Source: Thermoleophilia bacterium (GTDB taxonomy: Bacteria; Actinomycetota; Thermoleophilia; Gaiellales; Gaiellaceae). From it: a DNA stretch of 7,942 bases. Under the pieces are notes generated by a model. It searched no databases and was not told the origin of the DNA. It worked only from the letters and a program-made list of their open reading frames with translations. Below, in pieces: positions 1 to 7,224 of the stretch. Numbering within the stretch: the first letter of the stretch is position 1; every line of letters starts with the position of its first letter. Location of the stretch: contig JAERMP010000097.1 in the NCBI GenBank assembly GCA_016844515.1, positions 1 through 7,942 on the forward strand, written 5' to 3'. The translations under genes were made by a program, and so were the position numbers.

Positions 1-574
1 CGTACTCGGGTACCTCGGCCCACTCACGCGCCATCTCGGCCGAGACCTCGAGATGGAACTGCACGCCGTACGCACGATCGAAGCGGAACGCCTGGTTCGG
101 GTACGCGGGAGAGCCTGCCAGGCGCACAGCGCCGTGCGGCATGTCGAACGTGTCGCCGTGCCACTGGAGCGTGAGCAGGTCTCGCGGGAGCCCGGCGAAC
201 ACCGGGTCAGTGAGCCCATCCAGTGTGAGCGCGACGGGCAGGATCCCGACCTCGGGTGCCGGGCCGGGATAAACGCGGGCGCCGAGGGAGGCCGCGAGCA
301 GCTGCACGCCGAGGCATACGCCCCATAACGGGACGCCGGCCTGCGCCGCTTCGCCGATCAACCTCTTCTCGCCTGTGAGCCACGGCAGGACGGCGTCGTC
401 GTTCGCCGACATCGGCCCGCCCATGGCCACGATCGCGTCGAACCCGCGCCAGTCAGGGAGAGGGTCACCCTCGTCGAGCTCCACCCGATGGAGCTCCGCG
501 CCGCGATCGCGCAGCACATCCTCGAACACGCCCGGCGGCTCGCAGGCGATGTGCTGGAGGATCAGCGCTTTCAC
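1..574 (-). CDS. Class I glutamine amidotransferase (GMP synthase-like), 3' end missing
   Basis: The reading frame from GTG at 574 runs off the left edge after 191 codons; stand-alone members of this family are about 230-240 residues, so roughly the last fifth is missing. It shows the class I amidotransferase landmarks: an oxyanion-strand AMGGPMS at about 50-56, the nucleophile elbow GVCLG with Cys87, QWHGDTFD at 137-144, and QFHLE with His174 and Glu176 completing the Cys-His-Glu triad. Such domains release ammonia from glutamine. The stand-alone forms often act on unknown acceptors, so the substrate cannot be named. No Shine-Dalgarno sequence precedes the GTG, but a TAGTCT -10 box ends seven bases upstream, so the mRNA is probably leaderless. 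It is divergent from the first RNA unit. It could also be annotated as a GMP synthase N-terminal domain protein, but no synthetase domain can be seen in the window. Confidence 0.88.
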   Translation of the reverse strand, partial: MKALILQHIACEPPGVFEDVLRDRGAELHRVELDEGDPLPDWRGFDAIVAMGGPMSANDDAVLPWLTGEKRLIGEAAQAGVPLWGVCLGVQLLAASLGARVYPGPAPEVGILPVALTLDGLTDPVFAGLPRDLLTLQWHGDTFDMPHGAVRLAGSPAYPNQAFRFDRAYGVQFHLEVSAEMAREWAEVPEY

Positions 575-581
575 TCGGACG

Positions 582-611
582 AGACTAGCGGCCGAGTCTC
601 CGTTGGGCCAA
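582..611 (-). promoter_or_regulatory. Putative promoter of the amidotransferase gene
   Basis: On the minus strand TTGGCC (611-606) and TAGTCT (587-582) are separated by 18 bases. The -10 box lies seven bases before the GTG start, which predicts transcription starting at or next to the start codon. The -35 box abuts the conserved dyad at 612-628, so a factor bound there could affect both directions. Assigned by motif only. Confidence 0.4.
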
Positions 612-628
612 GTGCGCCAACTTCGCAC
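612..628. promoter_or_regulatory. Conserved dyad upstream of RNA unit 1, possible operator
   Basis: GTGCG-CCAACTT-CGCAC is a perfect 5-bp inverted repeat with a 7-base centre. The equivalent in copy 2 (1724-1740) keeps the centre unchanged and keeps pairing potential in the arms. It lies 57 bp upstream of the first base of the tRNA-like gene, counted from its right edge, and outside the expected transcript. A protein-binding site is therefore more likely than an RNA hairpin. The factor is unknown. Confidence 0.4.
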
Positions 629-668: not shown

Positions 669-674
669 TACCGT
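669..674 (+). promoter_or_regulatory. Putative -10 box of RNA unit 1
   Basis: TACCGT fits the TANNNT pattern. It lies within TCTACCGTGA, which is conserved in both copies, and is followed 11 bases later by the tRNA-like 5' end. The only conserved -35 candidate is a poor CCTGC about 20 bases upstream. Transcription would start around 681-683, leaving almost no leader. Confidence 0.4.
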
Positions 675-685
675 GATAGCGCGGC

Positions 686-771
686 GGAGGGCGAAATCCC
701 GAGGCGGGATGGCCGTCTGAGAAGCGGTCGACCGACGCGAGTCGGTTCCGGTTCGATTCCGGCGCCCTCCG
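686..771 (+). tRNA. tRNA-like gene, Ser/Sec-type 8/4 fold, anticodon GAG (copy 1)
   Basis: The cloverleaf can be drawn fully. Acceptor: 686-693 with 763-770 (8 bp). Linker: AA at 694-695. D-stem: 696-701 with 705-710 (6 bp, 3-base loop). Anticodon stem: 712-716 with 724-728, extendable by 711-729. Loop: 717-723 with T718 and anticodon GAG at 719-721. Variable arm: 731-736 with 741-746 around a GCGA loop. T-stem: 748-751 with 759-762 (4 bp) and T-loop TTCGATT. Discriminator: G771. The acceptor helix can extend three more pairs (683-685 with 772-774 shifted to CGCC 770-773). CCA is not encoded directly after G771, although ACCA follows at 775-778. An 8/4 branch, long D-stem, long variable arm and G73 are Ser/Sec-like and match the 'allo-tRNA' class described for bacteria. 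A normal tRNA-Leu(GAG) has a 7/5 branch and A73. It could insert Ser at CUC/CUU codons or be a purely regulatory tRNA mimic. Confidence 0.75.
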
Positions 772-798
772 CCCACCAGACCTGCTCTACACTCGTAG

Positions 799-814
799 TG
801 CTTCTCAGACGGTC
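799..814 (+). other. Segment complementary to the anticodon arm of tRNA-like copy 1
   Basis: Bases 799-814 can pair with 711-726, which covers the 5' strand of the anticodon stem, the whole loop with the GAG anticodon, and part of the 3' strand. It forms 16 consecutive pairs, two of them G-U (712-813 and 726-799). Formation of this helix would break the anticodon stem and bury the anticodon. The equivalent segment of copy 2 has changed in step with its own anticodon arm. Confidence 0.7.
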
Positions 815-830
815 GCGGGCGTAAGCCCGC
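815..830 (+). other. GTAA-capped hairpin upstream of terminator 1
   Basis: GCGGGC-GTAA-GCCCGC forms a 6-bp stem with a GNRA-type loop immediately after the anticodon-complementary segment, and it is identical in copy 2. Its 3' strand (AAGCCCGC, 823-830) could instead pair with the terminator 3' strand (857-864), so it may compete with terminator folding. Confidence 0.55.
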
Positions 831-840
831 TTCGCCATAC

Positions 841-870
841 GAAGCCCGCCGCCAGGCGGGCTTCGTCTTT
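841..870 (+). terminator. Rho-independent-type terminator of RNA unit 1
   Basis: GAAGCCCGCC (841-850), GCCA and GGCGGGCTTC (855-864) form a perfect 10-bp stem followed by GTCTTT. The T tract is short, as is common in GC-rich genomes. It also faces the end of the decayed minus-strand gene at 892. Confidence 0.65.
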
Positions 871-891: not shown

Positions 892-1649
892 TCAGACGAC
901 GGCTTCGAGTGCGTTTCTGAACTCGATGATCGTCTGTCTGAACCACGTTCGGGCTTCGTCGTGACGATCCAGCTGGTCGATCAGCTTTCCCTGCCACGCG
1001 TAACGGCGAAGAATCTTGCAGCGGTGCGTCCCCGGGTTGAACTCAAGCGACCCGAGGACTCTCTCGAGATCGTCCCTCTTGGTTTCGAGCAGCGCTAACA
1101 GCCTCAGGTTTTCCTCCCGGTCGCCAGTGGAGATCTCGAGCACACCTCGGAGCTCTCCGGATCCAATCTCCTCTTGAATCCAAGTCTTCGGGATCGGCGA
1201 CTTGATCGTGAACCAGAGCGACTTCGGATCTGCGCGACCCGCAAGTAGCTCCGGTCGTCGAAGAAGCGGATGTCCTCCCCAGTGTGCTCGTTGAGCCAGT
1301 CGAGGGCGACGCGGTGCTCGTCGCGGAACCCGCGAGCGATCCACACGATCGTCGCCGCGTCGGTTCCGGCCGTATAGGTCAGAAGCTGGCCGAGATGACC
1401 GTGGTCACTCTGCTCGATCTGGTTCTCGACGATCAGCCGCGCCTCGTGCGTGAGATCGCGTCCGATAAGGTCGAGCGAGAAGCCGCCCACCGAGTGCTCT
1501 GCCTCCTCGAGCTGGATCTCGAGGCCGAGTGTGTCGCCAAGGACGTCGGCGTTGTCGAGCAGCCAGGGCGTGAACGAGGTCGCCTCATTGGGCCAGACCG
1601 CTCGGATGTCCAGCCAGTCGACCTTGCCGAGTGCTTCGGGCGTGCTCAC
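892..1649 (-). pseudogene. Decayed DUF4268-family gene, frameshifted and internally shortened
   Basis: From GTG 1649 the first 130 codons read like the N-terminal part of DUF4268 proteins, with DIRAVWPNEA near 14-23, FSLDLIGRD at 57-65, LIVENQ at 72-77, HLGQLLTYTAG at 85-95 and FRDEHRVALDWL at 108-119. After about 1260 this frame becomes meaningless and the family resemblance continues in another minus frame, from about 1245 to the TGA at 892: LWFTIKS, then an NLRLLALLETKRDDLE-type helix and a C-terminal ARTWFRQTII helix. The middle section expected in full-length relatives (about 80-90 residues) is absent, so both a deletion and a frame change are present. Asp60 and the Glu75-x-Gln77 pair resemble a PD-(D/E)xK nuclease core; that is inference. 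ATG 1670 is an alternative start. TATGCT at 1660-1655 is a possible -10 box. The gene is flanked by the two RNA units. A sequencing error could explain the frameshift but not the shortened middle. Confidence 0.65.
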
Positions 1650-1723
1650 CGCGGAGCATAGGCACAGCAAGAGTCCCGGCCGCGTTGTCCCAGTCTTCGA
1701 GGTTGCGCGTGCGCCGGGCGAAC

Positions 1724-1780: not shown

Positions 1781-1786
1781 TACCGT
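1781..1786 (+). promoter_or_regulatory. Putative -10 box of RNA unit 2
   Basis: TACCGT ends 11 bases before the tRNA-like 5' end, exactly as in copy 1, within the conserved TCTACCGTGA. No good -35 box can be recognised. Confidence 0.4.
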
Positions 1787-1797
1787 GAACGTGCGGC

Positions 1798-1883
1798 GGA
1801 GGGCGAAATCCCGAGGCGGGATGGCTGCGTGAGAAGCAGTCGACCGACGCGAGTCGGTTCCGGTTCGAGTCCGGCGCCCTCCG
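1798..1883 (+). tRNA. tRNA-like gene, Ser/Sec-type 8/4 fold, anticodon GAG (copy 2)
   Basis: It folds as copy 1 does: acceptor 1798-1805 with 1875-1882, D-stem 1808-1813 with 1817-1822, anticodon stem 1824-1828 with 1836-1840 (plus 1823-1841), loop 1829-1835 with T1830 and GAG at 1831-1833, a 6-bp variable arm with GCGA loop, a 4-bp T-stem with loop TTCGAGT, and discriminator G1883. It differs from copy 1 at five positions in the 96-base core. Four of these are in the anticodon arm; one anticodon-stem pair changes from C-G to T-A and a U-G wobble becomes C-G, so the stem is under selection or recently constrained. The fifth is in the T-loop. No CCA directly follows G1883, although CCC-ACCA does. 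Function is as uncertain as for copy 1. Confidence 0.75.
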
Positions 1884-1913
1884 CCCACCACACCTGCTGC
1901 TCTACACTGGGGA

Positions 1914-1929
1914 TGCTTCTCACGCAGTC
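1914..1929 (+). other. Segment complementary to the anticodon arm of tRNA-like copy 2
   Basis: It can pair with 1823-1838 over 16 positions with one G-U (1824-1928). Compared with copy 1, three positions have changed (1926, 1924, 1923), and each change matches the change in the anticodon arm of its own copy. Confidence 0.7.
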
Positions 1930-1945
1930 GCGGGCGTAAGCCCGC
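1930..1945 (+). other. GTAA-capped hairpin upstream of terminator 2
   Basis: GCGGGC-GTAA-GCCCGC, identical to the hairpin at 815-830 and in the same place relative to the complementary segment and terminator. Confidence 0.55.
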
Positions 1946-1955
1946 TTCGCCATAC

Positions 1956-1985
1956 GAAGCCCGCCTGACGGCGGGCTTCGTCTTC
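1956..1985 (+). terminator. Terminator of RNA unit 2, at the convergent end of the glx cluster
   Basis: GAAGCCCGCC (1956-1965), TGAC and GGCGGGCTTC (1970-1979) form a perfect 10-bp stem followed by GTCTTCTTC. The stem equals copy 1 while the loop differs. It may also stop minus-strand transcription arriving from the gene ending at 2011, but there is no T tract on that side. Confidence 0.6.
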
Positions 1986-2010: not shown

Positions 2011-2472
2011 TTAGTGTCCTGCGGGTTTCTCCCAGCCCTCGAGGACCGGTGCCTTCCAGTCCGCGCCGACTGTCCGCGAGCCCTCCACCCAGGAGCCGAG
2101 CTCGGGCTGCGGGAACTTGCAGTGGATCTCCTTGAGCTGGATGCCGTAGGAGCCTCCGCTCGTCAGGTGCTTCATCAGCACCTTGCGCGCGATCTCGTCC
2201 TCCCTTCCAGGAGGGATGGTGAAGTAGATCTTGAGGAATGAGTTCGAGTAGCGGTCGAAGACGGCAGGGACACCGTCCTCCTCGAGGAGCGCGATGTCCT
2301 CGAGCCAGTTGATGTCGTCACCAGGCGTCAATGCTTGGAGATCCATGTCGTCGATGAGCGAGATGTCCTCCTGGTATCCGAACCGCTTCCCTGAGAGGAA
2401 CTCGGCATCGAGCGACTTGATCTTCTCGGGCTCGGCATACGCGAGCTCGTGCGAGTGGGTCTGCTCGGTCAT
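2011..2472 (-). CDS. Unrecognised 153-residue protein at the end of the glx cluster
   Basis: I do not recognise a named family. The protein is soluble in appearance, with no signal peptide and no membrane segment. It is acidic in its first half (GDDINWLEDIALLEEDG near 51-67) and richer in aromatic residues and glycine in the second half, with FLKIYFTIPPGR at 79-90, GGSYGIQLKEIHCKF at 106-120 and several Trp residues near the C-terminus. One Cys (118) rules out a classical iron-sulfur motif. The ATG at 2472 overlaps the glxD stop in an ATGA arrangement and is preceded by GGTGGAG, so it is translated together with glxD. The tight coupling suggests an extra subunit, assembly factor or regulator of the GlxBCD enzyme; that is inference. 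TAA ends it at 2011, facing RNA unit 2. Confidence 0.8.
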   Translation of the reverse strand: MTEQTHSHELAYAEPEKIKSLDAEFLSGKRFGYQEDISLIDDMDLQALTPGDDINWLEDIALLEEDGVPAVFDRYSNSFLKIYFTIPPGREDEIARKVLMKHLTSGGSYGIQLKEIHCKFPQPELGSWVEGSRTVGADWKAPVLEGWEKPAGH

Positions 2473-3914
2473 GACTCCACCGTCCGTAGGTCCGCGATCT
2501 GCGCTGTCTGATTCGCTGTGAGCTCCTCCTCCGCCTTGATGGCGAGGAGCCTCTTTACCTCGGCGAGGATCTCTTGCTCGGTCTGGCCGACGGTGTAGTT
2601 CGTTCCGGCGAGCGGCACGCGCGCCATGGCGGAAGCCTCGATCGTGAGCGCGGCGAGGTCCTCGGGCTCGAGCGAGTGAACGTTGGTCTTGCCGCAGGCT
2701 CGGGCGAGCATCTGCAGCTCCATGGTCATCGTCGTCAGGAAGTTGTAGACCCGTAGCGACGCGTCCTCGACGACCAGCCGCTTCCGCAGCTCCGGATCCT
2801 GGGTCGTGATCCCGACCGGGCAGCGGCCCGTGTGGCAGTGGTAGCACTGGCCGGCGGGCACGCCGACGGTCCCCTCGTAGTCGGTAACGCCGGGGATCTC
2901 CTTGTTGCAGTTGAGCGCCATAAGCGCCGAGTGCCCGATCGCGACGGCCGTCGCACCGAGCGCGATCGCCTTCGCCACGTCCGCGCCGTTCCGGATGCCG
3001 CCGGCGACCACGAGGTCGATCTCGTCCACAAGCCCGACATCCTCGAGCGCGCGCCGCGCCTCGGGAATGGCCGCCATGAGCGGGATGCCGGTCTCCTCGG
3101 TCGCGATGTGCGGGCCGGCGCCCGTGCCGCCCTCGGCACCGTCCAGATAGATGATGTCCGGGCCGCACTTCGCGGCCATGCGGACGTCGTCGTAGACGCG
3201 CGCCGCACCGAGCTTGAGCTGGATCGGCACCTGGTAGTCGGTTGCCTCGCGGATCTCCTGCACCTTGAGCGAGAGGTCGTCCGGACCCAGCCAGTCCGGG
3301 TGACGAGCCGGCGAGCGCTGATCGATTCCGGCTGGAAGCGAGCGCATCTCCGCCACCTGCTCGGTCACCTTCTGGCCCATCAGGTGCCCGCCGAGGCCGA
3401 CCTTGCAGCCCTGGCCGATGAAGAACTCGATCCCGTCCGCGAGCATCAGGTGGTGCGGGTTGAACCCGTACCGACTCTGGATCACCTGGTAGTACCACTT
3501 CGTCGAGTAGTCGCGCTCGGGCGGGATCATCCCGCCCTCGCCGGAGCAGGTCGCGGTGCCCGCCATCGAAGCGCCCTTCGCGAGCGCCATCTTTGCCTCG
3601 AGCGAGAGCGCGCCGAACGACATCCCCGTGATGTAGATCGGGATGTCGAGCGCGAGCGGCTTCTTCGCGAAGCGGGCGCCCAGCACCGTCTTCGTCACGC
3701 ACTTCTCGCGGTACCCCTCGATGACGAAGCGCGTGAGCGTGCCGGGGAGGAAGACGAGCTCGTCCCAGTGCGGCATCGGCTTGAAGATCGAGAAGCCGCG
3801 CATCCGGTAGCGGCCGAGCTCGGCCTTGATGTGGATGTCGTTGATGACCTCCGGGGTGAAGATCCGGCTGCGCCCGAGGACGTTCTTCTGAGAAGGGGCG
3901 GTCTCGTCGGCCAT
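2469..3914 (-). CDS. glxD: GlxD / MgsC-like FMN-binding glutamate synthase subunit
   Basis: This 481-residue protein has the glutamate synthase (FMN-binding) barrel. Visible are GMSFGALS at 97-104, GEGG at 125-128, DGAEGGTGAGP at 258-268, the phosphate-binding stretch AGGIRNGADVAKA at 304-316, and C-x2-C-x4-C (Cys357, 360, 365) followed by PVGITTQ, the usual site of a 3Fe-4S cluster in this family. In the family it accepts ammonia or an amine, passed from the amidotransferase subunit, and forms glutamate or, in methylotrophs, N-methylglutamate. I chose ATG 3914 because its A is also the last base of the glxC stop codon; a start at 3977 would extend deep into glxC. It belongs to the minus-strand glx operon. 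Without biochemical data it cannot be assigned as a GlxD-type glutamate synthase or as methylamine-glutamate N-methyltransferase subunit C (N-methylglutamate synthase). Confidence 0.93.
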   Translation of the reverse strand: MADETAPSQKNVLGRSRIFTPEVINDIHIKAELGRYRMRGFSIFKPMPHWDELVFLPGTLTRFVIEGYREKCVTKTVLGARFAKKPLALDIPIYITGMSFGALSLEAKMALAKGASMAGTATCSGEGGMIPPERDYSTKWYYQVIQSRYGFNPHHLMLADGIEFFIGQGCKVGLGGHLMGQKVTEQVAEMRSLPAGIDQRSPARHPDWLGPDDLSLKVQEIREATDYQVPIQLKLGAARVYDDVRMAAKCGPDIIYLDGAEGGTGAGPHIATEETGIPLMAAIPEARRALEDVGLVDEIDLVVAGGIRNGADVAKAIALGATAVAIGHSALMALNCNKEIPGVTDYEGTVGVPAGQCYHCHTGRCPVGITTQDPELRKRLVVEDASLRVYNFLTTMTMELQMLARACGKTNVHSLEPEDLAALTIEASAMARVPLAGTNYTVGQTEQEILAEVKRLLAIKAEEELTANQTAQIADLRTVES

Positions 3915-4702
3915 CACAGGACCAGCTTTCTCTCCGAGGGCTCGAGCATGTCGTAGTTGTAGAGCACCTTTCCGCACACGAACTTCTGGAACTCGGGCGG
4001 CGAGCCGAGACCGTAGATCCGGAACTTGCGCTCGATCAGCTCGGTATCACCGTCCGTCCACTCACCCGGGACGCAGTCGATCCCGAGCGATTTGACCTTG
4101 CCCGCGACGTAGATCGTCCCGTCGTACATCGAGTCGCCCAGCCCGGGCCCGACGTCGCCGCCGATGATGATCCGGCCGCGCTGCAGCATGAACCCGGTCA
4201 TCGAGCCGGCGGAGCCGAGCGTGATGATCGTGCCGCCCTTCTGGTCGACGCCGCTGCGGGCGCCGACGCGGCCCTTCACCACGAGATCGCCTCCGCGAAG
4301 CGCAGCGCCCGTGAGCGAGCCCGCGTTCCCGTCGACGACGACGACTCCGGACATCATGTTCTCGCAGGCCGACCAACCGACGCGGCCGGTGATGTGGATC
4401 TCGGGCCCGTCGATCAGGCCGCAGCCGAAGTAGCCGAGGCTGCCGTTGAAAGTGATCTTGCAGCGCGTGAGGATCCCGACTCCCAGCGAGTGCTTCGAGC
4501 CGGGGTTGTCGATCTCGATCTCCTTCACGCCCAGTTCGTACAGAAGCCAGCGCAGCTCGAGGTTGATCGCGCGCGTGGTCAGCTCCTTCGCGTCGAACCG
4601 TGCGCGCGTGCCGTCGATCACGGAGATCTTCGGGATGTCCGCAAATGGCTCGGCTAGACCGCGCGCGTCGTACGTGATCTTCCTCTCGCCTACCGCTGCC
4701 AC
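3914..4702 (-). CDS. glxC: GlxC / MgsB-like GXGXG subunit
   Basis: The 262-residue product is the free-standing version of the C-terminal beta-helix domain of large glutamate synthases. Its second half is a run of short strand-turn repeats with GXG-type glycines: FNGSLGYFGCG at 85-95, ITGRVGWSACENM at 104-116, VKGRVGARSG at 142-151, TLGSAGSMTG at 161-170 and IGGDVGPGLGDSMYDG at 180-195. In the family it links the amidotransferase and FMN subunits structurally and is not itself catalytic. GTG 4702 is favoured: AGAGG lies seven bases upstream, and the start overlaps the end of glxB by 13 bases. It ends in TGATG shared with glxD. An equal name is N-methylglutamate synthase subunit B; the sequence alone does not decide. 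Confidence 0.9.
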   Translation of the reverse strand: MAAVGERKITYDARGLAEPFADIPKISVIDGTRARFDAKELTTRAINLELRWLLYELGVKEIEIDNPGSKHSLGVGILTRCKITFNGSLGYFGCGLIDGPEIHITGRVGWSACENMMSGVVVVDGNAGSLTGAALRGGDLVVKGRVGARSGVDQKGGTIITLGSAGSMTGFMLQRGRIIIGGDVGPGLGDSMYDGTIYVAGKVKSLGIDCVPGEWTDGDTELIERKFRIYGLGSPPEFQKFVCGKVLYNYDMLEPSERKLVL

Positions 4703-5625
4703 ACGAGCACCTCTCGCTCGTAGGGGTCGTAGGTGTCGATCTCCCGCTCGAGGATCGCGCGGATGGCGATCTCCTCGGAGGCGATCGCGACGAGGTCGTC
4801 CGCTTCGTAGAGGACGAGGGGCTTCGCGGCCAGCTCGTCCTTCGCAACACCGAGCTCGTCCTTGGTAACCGCGATGTACGTGAAGACGCCATCGAGGTCG
4901 TCGAGCGACTTGTGCATCGCCTCCTCGAGGGTCGCTCCCTCGCTCATCTCCTGCGCGAGGTACACGGCGATGATCTCGGAGTCGCACTCCGACATGAACC
5001 GTCGCCCGGCCCGCTCGAGCCGGCGACGCCACATGAAGTAGTTCGTCAGCTGCCCGTTGTGGACGACCGCGACGTCGGAGTAGGGATACGCCCAGTACGG
5101 GTGGGCCCCGGCGATGTCCACCTCTGACTCCGTCGCCATTCGGACATGGCCGATCGCATGCGTCCCCGTGAACGACGAGAGCCCGTACTGGTCGTGCACG
5201 GTCTCTGCGTCGCCGAGGTCCTTGACGATCTCCAGCGTGCGGCCGAGCGAGAGAACCTCCGCCTCGGGGATGTCCTCCACGAAGTCGGCGAGCAGCTTGA
5301 GATCGCCGTCGTACTCGAACGAGACGCGGAATGCGTACGGCGTCTCCTCCTCGACCTCGTGGATCGAAGCGCCGAGCGAGGCAAGCCGGGACTCGACCTC
5401 GGCGCGGTGACGGCGGAGCCGGTCCCCGAACTCGAAGTCGCGGGGTGTGTTGGCGTCCGCGAGCTTGTAGCGCATGATGAGATCGCCGTTCTCGGGGCTG
5501 CCGTAGAGCGCATAGCCGGTCGAGTCGGGCCCGCGGTGCTTCATCGACTGGAGCATCCGCGTCATCTCGTCACCGATCGGGTGCTGTGACCCGTCCCGGT
5601 AGATGATCCCTGCTATTCCGCACAC
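4690..5625 (-). CDS. glxB: GlxB / MgsA-like class II glutamine amidotransferase
   Basis: This 311-residue Ntn-hydrolase has the nucleophile Cys2 directly after the initiator, in the order seen in glutamate synthase and PurF amidotransferase domains: MCGIAGI at 1-7, HRGPDSTG at 30-37, GHVRMATES at 159-167, HNGQLTNY at 189-196 and CDSE at 214-217. It should hydrolyse glutamine and pass ammonia to the GlxC/GlxD complex in the cytoplasm. Residues 60-145 form an insertion typical of the free-standing GlxB/MgsA type, giving the usual length for that group. The GTG at 5625 is preceded by GGAGGTGAT at good spacing. It is the only strong ribosome site in the cluster, suggesting that translation of the glx genes starts here and is then coupled downstream. 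Removal of the initiator residue is needed to free Cys2. Confidence 0.92.
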   Translation of the reverse strand: MCGIAGIIYRDGSQHPIGDEMTRMLQSMKHRGPDSTGYALYGSPENGDLIMRYKLADANTPRDFEFGDRLRRHRAEVESRLASLGASIHEVEEETPYAFRVSFEYDGDLKLLADFVEDIPEAEVLSLGRTLEIVKDLGDAETVHDQYGLSSFTGTHAIGHVRMATESEVDIAGAHPYWAYPYSDVAVVHNGQLTNYFMWRRRLERAGRRFMSECDSEIIAVYLAQEMSEGATLEEAMHKSLDDLDGVFTYIAVTKDELGVAKDELAAKPLVLYEADDLVAIASEEIAIRAILEREIDTYDPYEREVLVWQR

Positions 5626-5643
5626 TCAGATCACCTCCCGCAA

Positions 5644-5724
5644 GGTCTGCATCCGCAGGAGCGGATGCAGACCGCGGGTGCCGCCTGCGGCGGCAACATC
5701 CCTAAAGCGGCCGCTCCGCGGCCG
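5644..5724 (-). promoter_or_regulatory. Three inverted repeats between the synthetase gene and glxB
   Basis: The 118-bp gap holds three consecutive hairpin-forming sequences: a perfect 13-bp inverted repeat (5644-5656 with 5661-5673, loop AGGA), a 7-bp one (5679-5685 with 5689-5695) and a 7-bp GC-only one (5708-5714 with 5718-5724). In the minus-strand transcript the strongest hairpin comes last, just before the glxB ribosome site. No T tract follows any of them. They may set relative mRNA stability, slow polymerase, or act as a partial terminator between genes; the sequence does not show which. Confidence 0.5.
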
Positions 5725-5743
5725 GGGCCGTGGGTAACCACAG

Positions 5744-7141
5744 TCACGGAAGCACATCCAGGTACTCCTGCATGTCCCAGTCGGAGACAGTCGCGCAGTA
5801 GCGCTCCCACTCGTCCCGCTTGTAGTGCATGAAAACACGGTACATCTCGCCCGGCAGCGCGCTCTTCACGACCTCATCGGCCTCGAGCGCTTCGAGCGCC
5901 TCGCCGAGCGTCATCGGAACGCGCCGCACCTGCTTGCCGGCCTCGATCGCCTCGTAGATGTTCCCCTCCTCGGGCTCGCCCGGATCGAGCTTCCGCTGAA
6001 TCCCGTCGTCCATGACCTTGATCAGACCCGCTAGCGCCAGGTACGGATTGACGGCGGAGTCGACCGAGCGGTACTCGAAGCGGTCGGGCGACGAGATCCG
6101 CAGGGCGGTCGTGCGGTTCTGGTAGCCCCAGTCGGCGAAAACCGGAGCCCAGAAGCCCGTGTCCCAGAAGCGTCGGTACGAGTTGACCGTCGGCGCGGTG
6201 ACGCAGGTGAGGCCGCGGAGGTGCTCGAGGATGCCCCCGATCGCTTGCAGCCCCGTCTCGCTCGGCTTGTGAATGTCGTCCGTGTCGGGCAGGAAGGCGT
6301 TCTCGTCGCCCTTCCAGAGCGAGATGTTCGTGTGGCAGCCGTTTGCCGAGACGCCCATGAACGGCTTCGGCATGAAACACGGGAAGACGCCGAGCTCGCG
6401 ACCGACCTGTTTCGCGATTTGCCGGAACGTCGAGAGGTTGTCCGCCGTCTGCTCGGCGCGATCGAAGCCGAAGTTGAGCTCGATCTGGCCAGGCGCGTCC
6501 TCGTGATCGCCCTGGATCATGTCGAGCCCGAGCTTCTGCCCGTACTCGACCATCTTGTGGATGATCGGCTGGAGCTCGGAGAACTGATCGATGTGGTAGC
6601 AGTAGGGCTTGGTGACGCCCTCGACCGAGGGCGTGCCGTCGGCGCCCAACTTGAGCCACATCATCTCTGGCTCCATCCCGGCACGCAGGTGCATGCCCGT
6701 CCGTCCTTCGAAGTCCTCCTGGATGCGGCGCAGGTTCCCGCGGCAGTCCGAGGTGAGCACCTCGCCCGGCCCCTCGCGGTCCTCGCGGTTGCGGAAGCAC
6801 GTGCACCAGACGCGCGCAACCCGCGAGTCCCATGGCAGCACCTGGAACGTCTCGGGCTCAGGGATCCCGACGAGCTCCCAAGCCTCCGGGCCGTAGCCGA
6901 TGTAGTTGCCGTGGCGGTCGACGAAGAGGTTCGCCGTCGAGCCGTAGACGAGCTGGAAGCCCTTCTGGGCGATCGTCTCCCAGTGAGGCGCCGGAACGCC
7001 CTTACCCATGATGCGGCCGGTTACGGAGACGAACTGGTAGTAGATGTAGGTGACGCCCTCGGCGTCGATCTTCTTCCGGACATCCTTCACCCGCTCAGCA
7101 CGTCCCTCGGCTTCGACGAAACGCTCCAGGTCGGTCGCCAC
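5744..7141 (-). CDS. glnT: Glutamine synthetase-like ligase, type III (GlnT) / gamma-glutamylmethylamide synthetase (GmaS) type
   Basis: This 465-residue protein is an ATP-dependent glutamate-amine ligase of the glutamine synthetase fold. Visible are a beta-grasp N-domain (about 28-110), GMEPE at 155-159 (metal-binding Glu), HEDAPGQIELNFG at 213-225, MPKPFMGVSANGCH at 257-270 (ATP and glutamate site, His270), APTVNSYRR at 316-324, and RFEYRSVDSAVNPY at 354-367. The stretch matching the E. coli ammonium-binding FDGSS reads VYGST (65-69), so Asp50 appears replaced by Tyr66. This points to a substrate other than, or besides, ammonia, such as methylamine. The adenylylation loop NLYDLP is only partly kept (GNIYEA, 393-398). 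Two GTG starts exist, 7144 and 7141; 7141 is seven bases from AAAGGAG and is preferred. It precedes glxBCD, as in glnT and mgs/gmaS clusters. Family certain, substrate uncertain. Confidence 0.9.
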   Translation of the reverse strand: MATDLERFVEAEGRAERVKDVRKKIDAEGVTYIYYQFVSVTGRIMGKGVPAPHWETIAQKGFQLVYGSTANLFVDRHGNYIGYGPEAWELVGIPEPETFQVLPWDSRVARVWCTCFRNREDREGPGEVLTSDCRGNLRRIQEDFEGRTGMHLRAGMEPEMMWLKLGADGTPSVEGVTKPYCYHIDQFSELQPIIHKMVEYGQKLGLDMIQGDHEDAPGQIELNFGFDRAEQTADNLSTFRQIAKQVGRELGVFPCFMPKPFMGVSANGCHTNISLWKGDENAFLPDTDDIHKPSETGLQAIGGILEHLRGLTCVTAPTVNSYRRFWDTGFWAPVFADWGYQNRTTALRISSPDRFEYRSVDSAVNPYLALAGLIKVMDDGIQRKLDPGEPEEGNIYEAIEAGKQVRRVPMTLGEALEALEADEVVKSALPGEMYRVFMHYKRDEWERYCATVSDWDMQEYLDVLP

Positions 7142-7184
7142 CACGTTGCTCCTTTTCTCCCGCCTCCGAAGTCGGTCGTGCGGG

Positions 7185-7190
7185 AGCCTA
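7185..7190 (-). promoter_or_regulatory. Possible -10 box for the synthetase-glx cluster
   Basis: TAGGCT (7190-7185) fits TANNNT and would give a leader of about 35-40 nt containing the AAAGGAG ribosome site. No convincing -35 box is seen. An 8-bp palindrome CGTGCACG (7207-7214) lies just upstream. Weak, motif-only evidence. Confidence 0.25.
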
Positions 7191-7224
7191 ATCAGCGGAT
7201 GGCGATCGTGCACGGGATCTGATC

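Follow-up and report, generated by a model that had tools for sequence, protein, structure and literature searches.

The window, the whole stretch of DNA of 7,942 nt that was analyzed, raises the question of why two tRNA-like genes are each followed by a short segment complementary to their own anticodon arm. The window contains two units of approximately 260 nt (612-870 and 1724-1985), whose repeat blocks are 84% and 88% identical. We refer to the complement of the anticodon arm as the guide. The elements of the two units and of the gene between them are as follows.

669 to 674, plus strand: -10-like box TACCGT of the first tRNA gene (by inspection)
686 to 771, plus strand: 8/4 allo-tRNA, copy 1, from base 1 to discriminator G73 (ARAGORN, Rfam, alignment); anticodon GAG 719-721, anticodon stem 711-716/724-729, loop 717-723
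711 to 727, plus strand: anticodon-arm stretch of copy 1 paired by the downstream complement (sequence, covariation)
788 to 793, plus strand: -10-like box TACACT preceding the complement, copy 1 (TANNNT conservation)
799 to 814, plus strand: guide, complement of its own anticodon arm, copy 1; proposed 5' end of an antisense RNA
815 to 830, plus strand: hairpin 3' of the guide, copy 1 (folding, alignment)
839 to 870, plus strand: terminator-like hairpin with a T-rich end, copy 1 (folding, alignment; unlisted by the consensus scan)
892 to 1670, minus strand: DUF4268 gene between both units, apparently split across two frames (892-1344 and 1104-1670)
1781 to 1786, plus strand: -10-like box TACCGT of the second tRNA gene (by inspection)
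1798 to 1883, plus strand: 8/4 allo-tRNA, copy 2 (ARAGORN, Rfam, alignment); anticodon GAG 1831-1833, anticodon stem 1823-1828/1836-1841, loop 1829-1835
1903 to 1908, plus strand: -10-like box TACACT preceding the complement, copy 2 (TANNNT conservation)
1914 to 1929, plus strand: guide, complement of its own anticodon arm, copy 2
1930 to 1945, plus strand: hairpin 3' of the guide, copy 2 (folding, alignment)
1954 to 1984, plus strand: terminator-like hairpin, copy 2 (folding, alignment, terminator scan)

In both copies, the complementarity to the anticodon arm was complete. The stretch 711-726 (GGCCGTCTGAGAAGCG) pairs with 799-814 (TGCTTCTCAGACGGTC) at 16 of 16 positions (14 Watson-Crick and two G-U pairs), and 1823-1838 pairs with 1914-1929 at 16 of 16 (15 Watson-Crick and one G-U). 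The sequence-only reading had counted four differences between the two anticodon arms, three of them compensated downstream, which direct reading confirmed; the position that it took for an unpaired loop base, 717/1829, is anticodon-loop position 32. It had also proposed that the long helix would bury the anticodon. Our results agree with this proposal, as the pairing would cover the anticodon, and when either whole unit was folded as one RNA, the anticodon arm was paired with the downstream segment and the cloverleaf was opened (z of -5.45 and -5.39).

Homologous units, which the sequence-only reading had suggested collecting with a covariance model, were gathered with models of the tRNA part alone (R1, then R2 and R3). 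This collection yielded a total of 46 units: the two of the window, 39 from surveys of Thermoleophilia and Planctomycetota, and five from surveys of Chloroflexota and Acidimicrobiia. An initial pattern scan of the genome collection had given 14 loci, two of which were homologues, while the other 12 were judged by inspection to be chance or unrelated matches. The two homologues were L003, a Thermoleophilia metagenome-assembled genome (MAG) with the same amidotransferase neighbor and two units, one of them decayed, and L008/L016, from a Planctomycetota MAG. With the covariance model, five units were found in the planctomycete genome G002, with the anticodons GAG, GAC (three units) and CAC, and each of the four units with enough downstream DNA carries the complement of its own arm.

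The occurrence of matches across the surveyed groups, which overlap, was patchy. Matches were found in 12 of 129 genomes of the order of G001 at E<=1e-6 (four of the 12 being ordinary or non-unit matches), in 21 of 399 genomes of its class (E<=1e-8) and in three of 296 genomes of its phylum. The class of G002 gave four of 23 genomes, and its phylum 10 of 294, six of which look like ordinary tRNA-Ser. Matches were also present in four of 251 genomes of the phylum of G697 (the genome of the SAR202 locus L011) and in one of 198 genomes of the class of G696 (the genome of the Acidimicrobiaceae locus L009). The class of G702 gave none in 148 genomes, an empty result that is uninformative by itself, and 11 of 121 genomes of the order of G295 matched with no unit beyond those already collected.

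Three sites were left out before counting: L027 (4 nt downstream, and near-identical to L036), L018 (the site of the decayed copy in L015) and L032 (an 82-nt match with no unit). Thirteen ordinary tRNAs were set aside as controls (L022-L024, L033-L035, L062-L067 and L069); nine of the 13 were called Ser by ARAGORN (Sec in the case of L023), L064 was also Ser, and L062, L065 and L067 were judged to be ordinary from their loops only. ARAGORN called no tRNA at several units and read L060 as Ser(TGA), compared with GAA in our own reading of the loop.

The tRNA part of the units has the architecture of an allo-tRNA. ARAGORN reported tRNA-Leu(GAG) at 686-773 and 1798-1885, and Rfam reported tRNA-Sec at 685-771 (51.8 bits) and 1797-1883 (47.1 bits, with a gathering threshold of 47). 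An ordinary tRNA-Leu is disfavored by G73, the serine-type acceptor and the 8/4 branch. The tRNA-Sec family (RF01852) has a similarly extended acceptor, long D stem and long variable arm, but tRNA-Sec was rejected because the anticodon at 719-721 and 1831-1833 is GAG, not UCA. The alignment of 41 units revealed an 8-bp acceptor stem, a 4-bp T stem and a 5-bp variable stem, that is, a 12-bp acceptor branch of the 8/4 kind with a long variable arm; in the window, should G771 not be the discriminator, a ninth acceptor pair (685-771) could form. Over the 41 units, 93.3% of the cloverleaf cells were paired, and 273 double changes were present versus 82 in shuffles; the tRNA fold is under selection. 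Unlike the other stems, which are variable, the top of the acceptor was nearly fixed (1-72, GC in 40 of 40; 2-71, GC in 39 and GU in one; 3-70, AU in 39 and CG in one). A37 was present in all 41 units, and U33 and G73 in 38 each.

Together, G1-C72, G2-C71, A3-U70 and G73, which we take to be serine-type elements, accompany a non-serine anticodon (GAG in the window), and we infer that the tRNA would be charged with serine and used in translation. As read from the loops, the anticodons of the units with a complement are GAG, GAC, GAU, GAA, GCC and CAC, and the codons for these six rank 2, 3, 4, 7, 12 and 16 of 64 among the 1885 codons of six window genes. These codons are so common that a serine tRNA reading them would be expected to hit nearly every protein.

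To a large extent, the guide follows the anticodon arm of its own tRNA. A strong complement of the own arm, at +17 to +135, was found in 34 of the 45 units that have 100 nt or more of downstream DNA (L017 falls short, with 53 nt), with a score limit of 27 that was fixed after the scores were seen. When each arm was compared with its own 170 nt downstream, the summed score of the 45 units was 1543.5, while 100,000 permutations of the downstream stretches gave a mean of 1048, a standard deviation of 30 and a maximum of 1195; because related units have loops in common, these permutation numbers are not exact probabilities. The 34 units with a complement contain 21 different 7-nt loops. At loop bases 32-38, the own partner paired in 229 of the 238 cells, compared with 172 +/- 5 (maximum, 192) in 20,000 permutations. 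In particular, position 36, the third anticodon base, was paired in 34 of 34 units (C-G 15, G-C eight, U-A eight, A-U two and U-G one), and an uninterrupted helix of 8-20 pairs (median, 15) runs through U33. The cloverleaf is unable to explain covariation at loop positions. The long helix of arm and guide is itself under selection, as the sequence-only reading had argued from two copies.

We also compared the duplexes and the controls. The own guide gave the best duplex for 28 of the 34 arms (mean of -29.8 vs -13.3 kcal/mol). Different units that have a loop in common score up to 47 with each other, meaning that the guides are not all private. The 13 control tRNAs scored from 15.5 to 32, where L069 (32) exceeded the limit with a mismatched helix. 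Among the 32 units found after the idea arose, 27 had a tandem complement and one, L044, had a divergent complement. Homologues in which the arm varies and the downstream segment stays static, the case that the sequence-only reading had named as counting against it, were not seen among the 34; yet 10 of the 45 tRNAs have no complement, whichever arrangement is considered.

Several observations suggest that the guide is the start of a separate RNA gene. A TANNNT box lies just 5' of the guide in 31 of 34 units, versus 5.9% of the 24-nt windows in the same surroundings; the three units without it are L021, L043 and L040, and inspection of L021 revealed CACAAT, with TTGACT 17 nt before it. In the 26 nt preceding tRNA base 1, TANNNT was found in 18 of 33 units. 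The claim of a promoter rests on this conservation, since a scan of 560-2020 in the window with an E. coli-type consensus gave none. At the usual -10 spacing, the RNA would start near the guide, which would leave its 5' end free for pairing. On the 3' side of the guide, the 31 of 34 units that were aligned (L041, L053 and L054 were omitted) have a hairpin that a short linker, often UUCACC or UUCGCC, joins to a GC-rich terminator-like hairpin. In L044, whose discriminator is U, the complement (1671-1686, plus strand) and the tRNA (1501-1599, minus strand) are divergent; the complement is preceded by TTGACG, 17 nt and TACCCT and is followed by a hairpin and a terminator-like hairpin. This complement cannot belong to the tRNA transcript there. 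From the TANNNT box and the divergent L044, the complement is most likely a separate antisense RNA and not merely a cis trailer.

Gaps between tRNA and guide reach approximately 130 nt. In 15 long-gap units (L028, L031, L037, L038, L045, L047-L049, L051-L053, L055, L057, L058 and L060), we observed a branched hairpin right after the tRNA, the loop of which tends to be complementary to the anticodon loop; the best loop-matching hairpins are those of L031 and L060. The match of this hairpin to the anticodon loop scored 244 vs 209 +/- 10 (p 7e-4), with the own stretch ranking first in four of 15 units. The hairpin may be an extra lock.

The units lacking a guide were of several kinds. No complement was found in 10 of 45 units, namely L047, L056, L058, L042, the decayed L015 copy and all five from the surveys of Chloroflexota and Acidimicrobiia. 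L056 scored 29 on a mismatched alignment and was counted as without a complement; otherwise, the count of units with a complement would be 35 of 45. No guide was found for L042, L047, L056 and L058 within the loci of approximately 1.7-3.1 kb that were examined, with L042 having just 123 nt downstream. L047 looks intact, with no broken pair, G73 and an encoded CCA, which indicates that an allo-tRNA can persist without a neighboring guide. The Chloroflexota and Acidimicrobiia loci L068 and L070-L073 contain allo-tRNA-like genes with the anticodons GCA, TGG, GAT, TAG and GAG, as read from the loop, and no antisense partner was found in these loci. Flanking inverted repeats were considered around these five, and this idea was dropped after one weak pair was found in the five loci.

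The decayed copy at L015 1239-1328 (L003/L015) has six of eight acceptor pairs unformed, gaps counted, and its downstream segment no longer matches. At L003 1623-1715 and 2127-2537, a decayed unit, with an unpaired acceptor and a guide that no longer matches, adjoins an intact unit and a PemK/MazF-type toxin gene, which lies downstream of the units. Acceptor pairing is incomplete in one or more cells in six of the 34 units with a complement, and two of the 34 lack G73.

The surroundings of the units were compared with those of relatives. In the window, the units are flanked by a class-I amidotransferase gene (2-628, minus strand) and a conserved ORF (2011-2472, minus strand), and the region 574-2011 is a variable site between the two. 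Amidotransferase matches were present in 73 of 129 genomes, and among the 30 loci fetched only L074, which is from G001, the genome of L003, had units. The spacing between amidotransferase and ORF is 126 nt in L079, 73 nt in L085 and -1 nt in L082, compared with 1436 nt in the window, where the gap contains unit 1, the apparently split DUF4268 gene and unit 2. The units represent an insertion at a position left empty in relatives. L075 and L083 have gaps of 1079 and 1295 nt with no unit, so the site accepts other insertions too.

The flanks of 38 loci revealed no recurrent protein partner among 101 of the 121 ORFs; the most widely shared Pfam families, among the 25 of 38 families listed, were methyltransferase types (three members) and RNase H or hydrolase types (two), and a protein partner was rejected. 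No recurring defense or mobility gene was found in these flanks, a pattern scan of viral contigs gave no match, and blastn found no match in plasmids and phages; thus, a role in addiction on mobile DNA is unsupported by the context. Further along the window, 2469-7213 (minus strand) encodes a glutamate-synthase-domain protein, a GXGXG protein, a class-II amidotransferase and a glutamine synthetase beside greA, a cluster that looks unrelated to the RNA units.

The reading that we favor, and hold to be rather probable, is that the allo-tRNA is a poison and the antisense RNA its antidote, the two forming an RNA-only pair of toxin-antitoxin type. The unit would be a pair of RNA genes. The first would encode an 8/4 allo-tRNA with a tRNA-Ser-type acceptor and discriminator and the anticodon for another much-used codon (GAG for CUC in the window), and the second, beginning some 30 nt past the tRNA, an antisense RNA of approximately 70 nt with a promoter and a terminator of its own. 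At its 5' end, the antisense RNA would be complementary to the anticodon loop and the 5' strand of the anticodon stem of its own tRNA. This single-stranded end would pair with the 7-nt anticodon loop as a toehold and then invade the anticodon stem, which would mask the anticodon and break the fold. If the antisense RNA were lost or outrun, the free tRNA would be charged with serine and would place it at much-used codons for Leu, Val, Ile, Phe or Gly, poisoning the proteome. The serine-type identity, the anticodons for common codons and the matching antidote per tRNA argue for this reading, as do the patchy multi-copy occurrence, the lack of a protein partner, the insertion at an empty site and the decayed copy with its unmatched segment. 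Against it stand L042, L047, L056 and L058, which have no guide within the loci examined although L047 looks intact, and the five allo-tRNAs from the Chloroflexota and Acidimicrobiia surveys, which have none either. From the DNA sequence, we infer that both RNAs would be expressed and separately transcribed, that the tRNA would be charged and toxic, and that the antisense RNA would act as its antidote.

Other explanations fit parts of the same evidence. The sequence-only reading had the complement as a trailer in cis, with tRNA and complement on one transcript that is locked or open depending on processing or a signal. The same strand and the short gap in the window and other units speak for such a switch, as do the one-RNA folds that favor the long helix and the tendency of the long-gap hairpins to match the anticodon loop (15 units, p 7e-4), but the promoter-like box directly before the complement, the terminator, the gaps of up to approximately 130 nt and the divergent gene in L044 speak against it. 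We consider this explanation unlikely as a whole and that claim probably wrong or half right, in that a read-through cis form may complement the trans form in units with a short gap, those of the window included. The tRNA could instead be a regulated and useful mis-decoder, with the antisense RNA permitting a low level of serine misincorporation under stress that is adaptive and not poisonous. The anatomy of guide, fold, covariation and box is equally compatible with this explanation, which nevertheless appears distinctly improbable given that the targets are the commonest codons, that the occurrence is patchy (in the class, for instance, 21 of the 399 genomes) and that several differently aimed copies are present within one genome (G002).

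There is only a slim chance, in our view, that the tRNA decodes nothing and serves as a decoy or sponge, for example for an anticodon nuclease or for a small RNA with real targets elsewhere. Some allo-tRNAs are described as unusable by E. coli in the parts of PMC7609411 that we consulted, whereas the conserved U33, A37, T-loop, acceptor top and G73 would be less needed by a decoy. An inverted repeat or copying between the two stretches at the DNA level, as at a recombination site with no RNA function, is highly improbable. Insertion at a site empty in relatives would suit it, but the match follows the anticodon arm, and a box lies before the complement and hairpins after it. Furthermore, the non-Watson-Crick cells at positions 26-38 comprised 31 G-U, eight A-C and 10 others of 442 (binomial p of 3e-4 for G-U vs A-C, in a register picked by a score slightly favoring G-U over A-C). 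This excess of G-U among the departures points to selection on RNA pairing and not DNA copying of one arm from the other, which the sequence-only reading had left as its second option.

We compared the putative poison-antidote pair with known systems. T-box leaders recognize ordinary tRNAs by pairing with the anticodon triplet and the NCCA end, and control the following gene. Both involve an RNA that reads an anticodon, but in our units the pairing would involve approximately 8-20 bases of one private tRNA, and a terminator-like hairpin lies at the end of the RNA. T-box leaders were also rejected on a search, as Rfam gave no T-box match in the window (E<=1) nor in L060, L031, L019, L061 and L055 (E<=0.01).

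Allo-tRNAs of the 8/4 and 9/3 types were reportedly described by Mukai et al. in 2017. As described in passages of PMC7609411, allo-tRNAs share with the window tRNAs the 12-bp acceptor branch (8+4 here), the long variable arm, the 6-bp D and anticodon stems, and a serine-type acceptor with a non-serine anticodon. According to the same passages, related 8/4 and 9/3 allo-tRNAs insert Ser at CUC and UUA in E. coli, and a link to toxin-antitoxin systems or transposons has been supposed for one group. In contrast to our units, these passages mention no antisense gene, and the hosts that they name are Clostridia, Proteobacteria and Acidobacteria, versus Thermoleophilia and Planctomycetota here.

RNA-RNA toxin-antitoxin pairs are classed as type VIII in the consulted part of PMC12548467, of which CreTA is an example (PMC8501985, in part). 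Judged from the sequence, the units resemble this type in having two adjacent putative RNA genes, one complementary to the other, and, going by the excerpts of both sources, CreTA is similar in that both parts are RNA and translation is targeted through a tRNA. The excerpts of PMC8501985 describe CreT as sequestering a rare tRNA via the codons of a tiny ORF and CreA as repressing the CreT promoter through Cascade, whereas here the putative toxin would be a tRNA for common codons that the antitoxin pairs with directly. Two features of CreTA, CRISPR-like repeats flanking the antitoxin and a toxin mini-ORF with rare codons, were not noticed in our sequence. Type I systems likewise use an antisense RNA as antitoxin (general knowledge, and PMC12548467 in part), but our units have no toxin mRNA or peptide, and the paired RNA is a covarying tRNA cloverleaf.

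Thus, allo-tRNAs and RNA-RNA toxin-antitoxin pairs are already known from the parts of the literature consulted, and searches limited to open-licence PMC papers turned up no tRNA whose anticodon arm is matched by an antisense RNA gene that is dedicated to it and covaries with it. We give about even chances to the view that the units are a new class of selfish, protein-free toxin-antidote element, in which a code-breaking tRNA would be countered by an antisense RNA that unfolds its anticodon arm, with toxin and antidote co-diversifying and the copies in one genome aimed differently. If true, this would assign a function to some, at least, of the allo-tRNAs whose anticodons are odd, and would provide a protein-free toxin-antitoxin pair whose toxin attacks the genetic code itself and a means of programmable control of a single tRNA.
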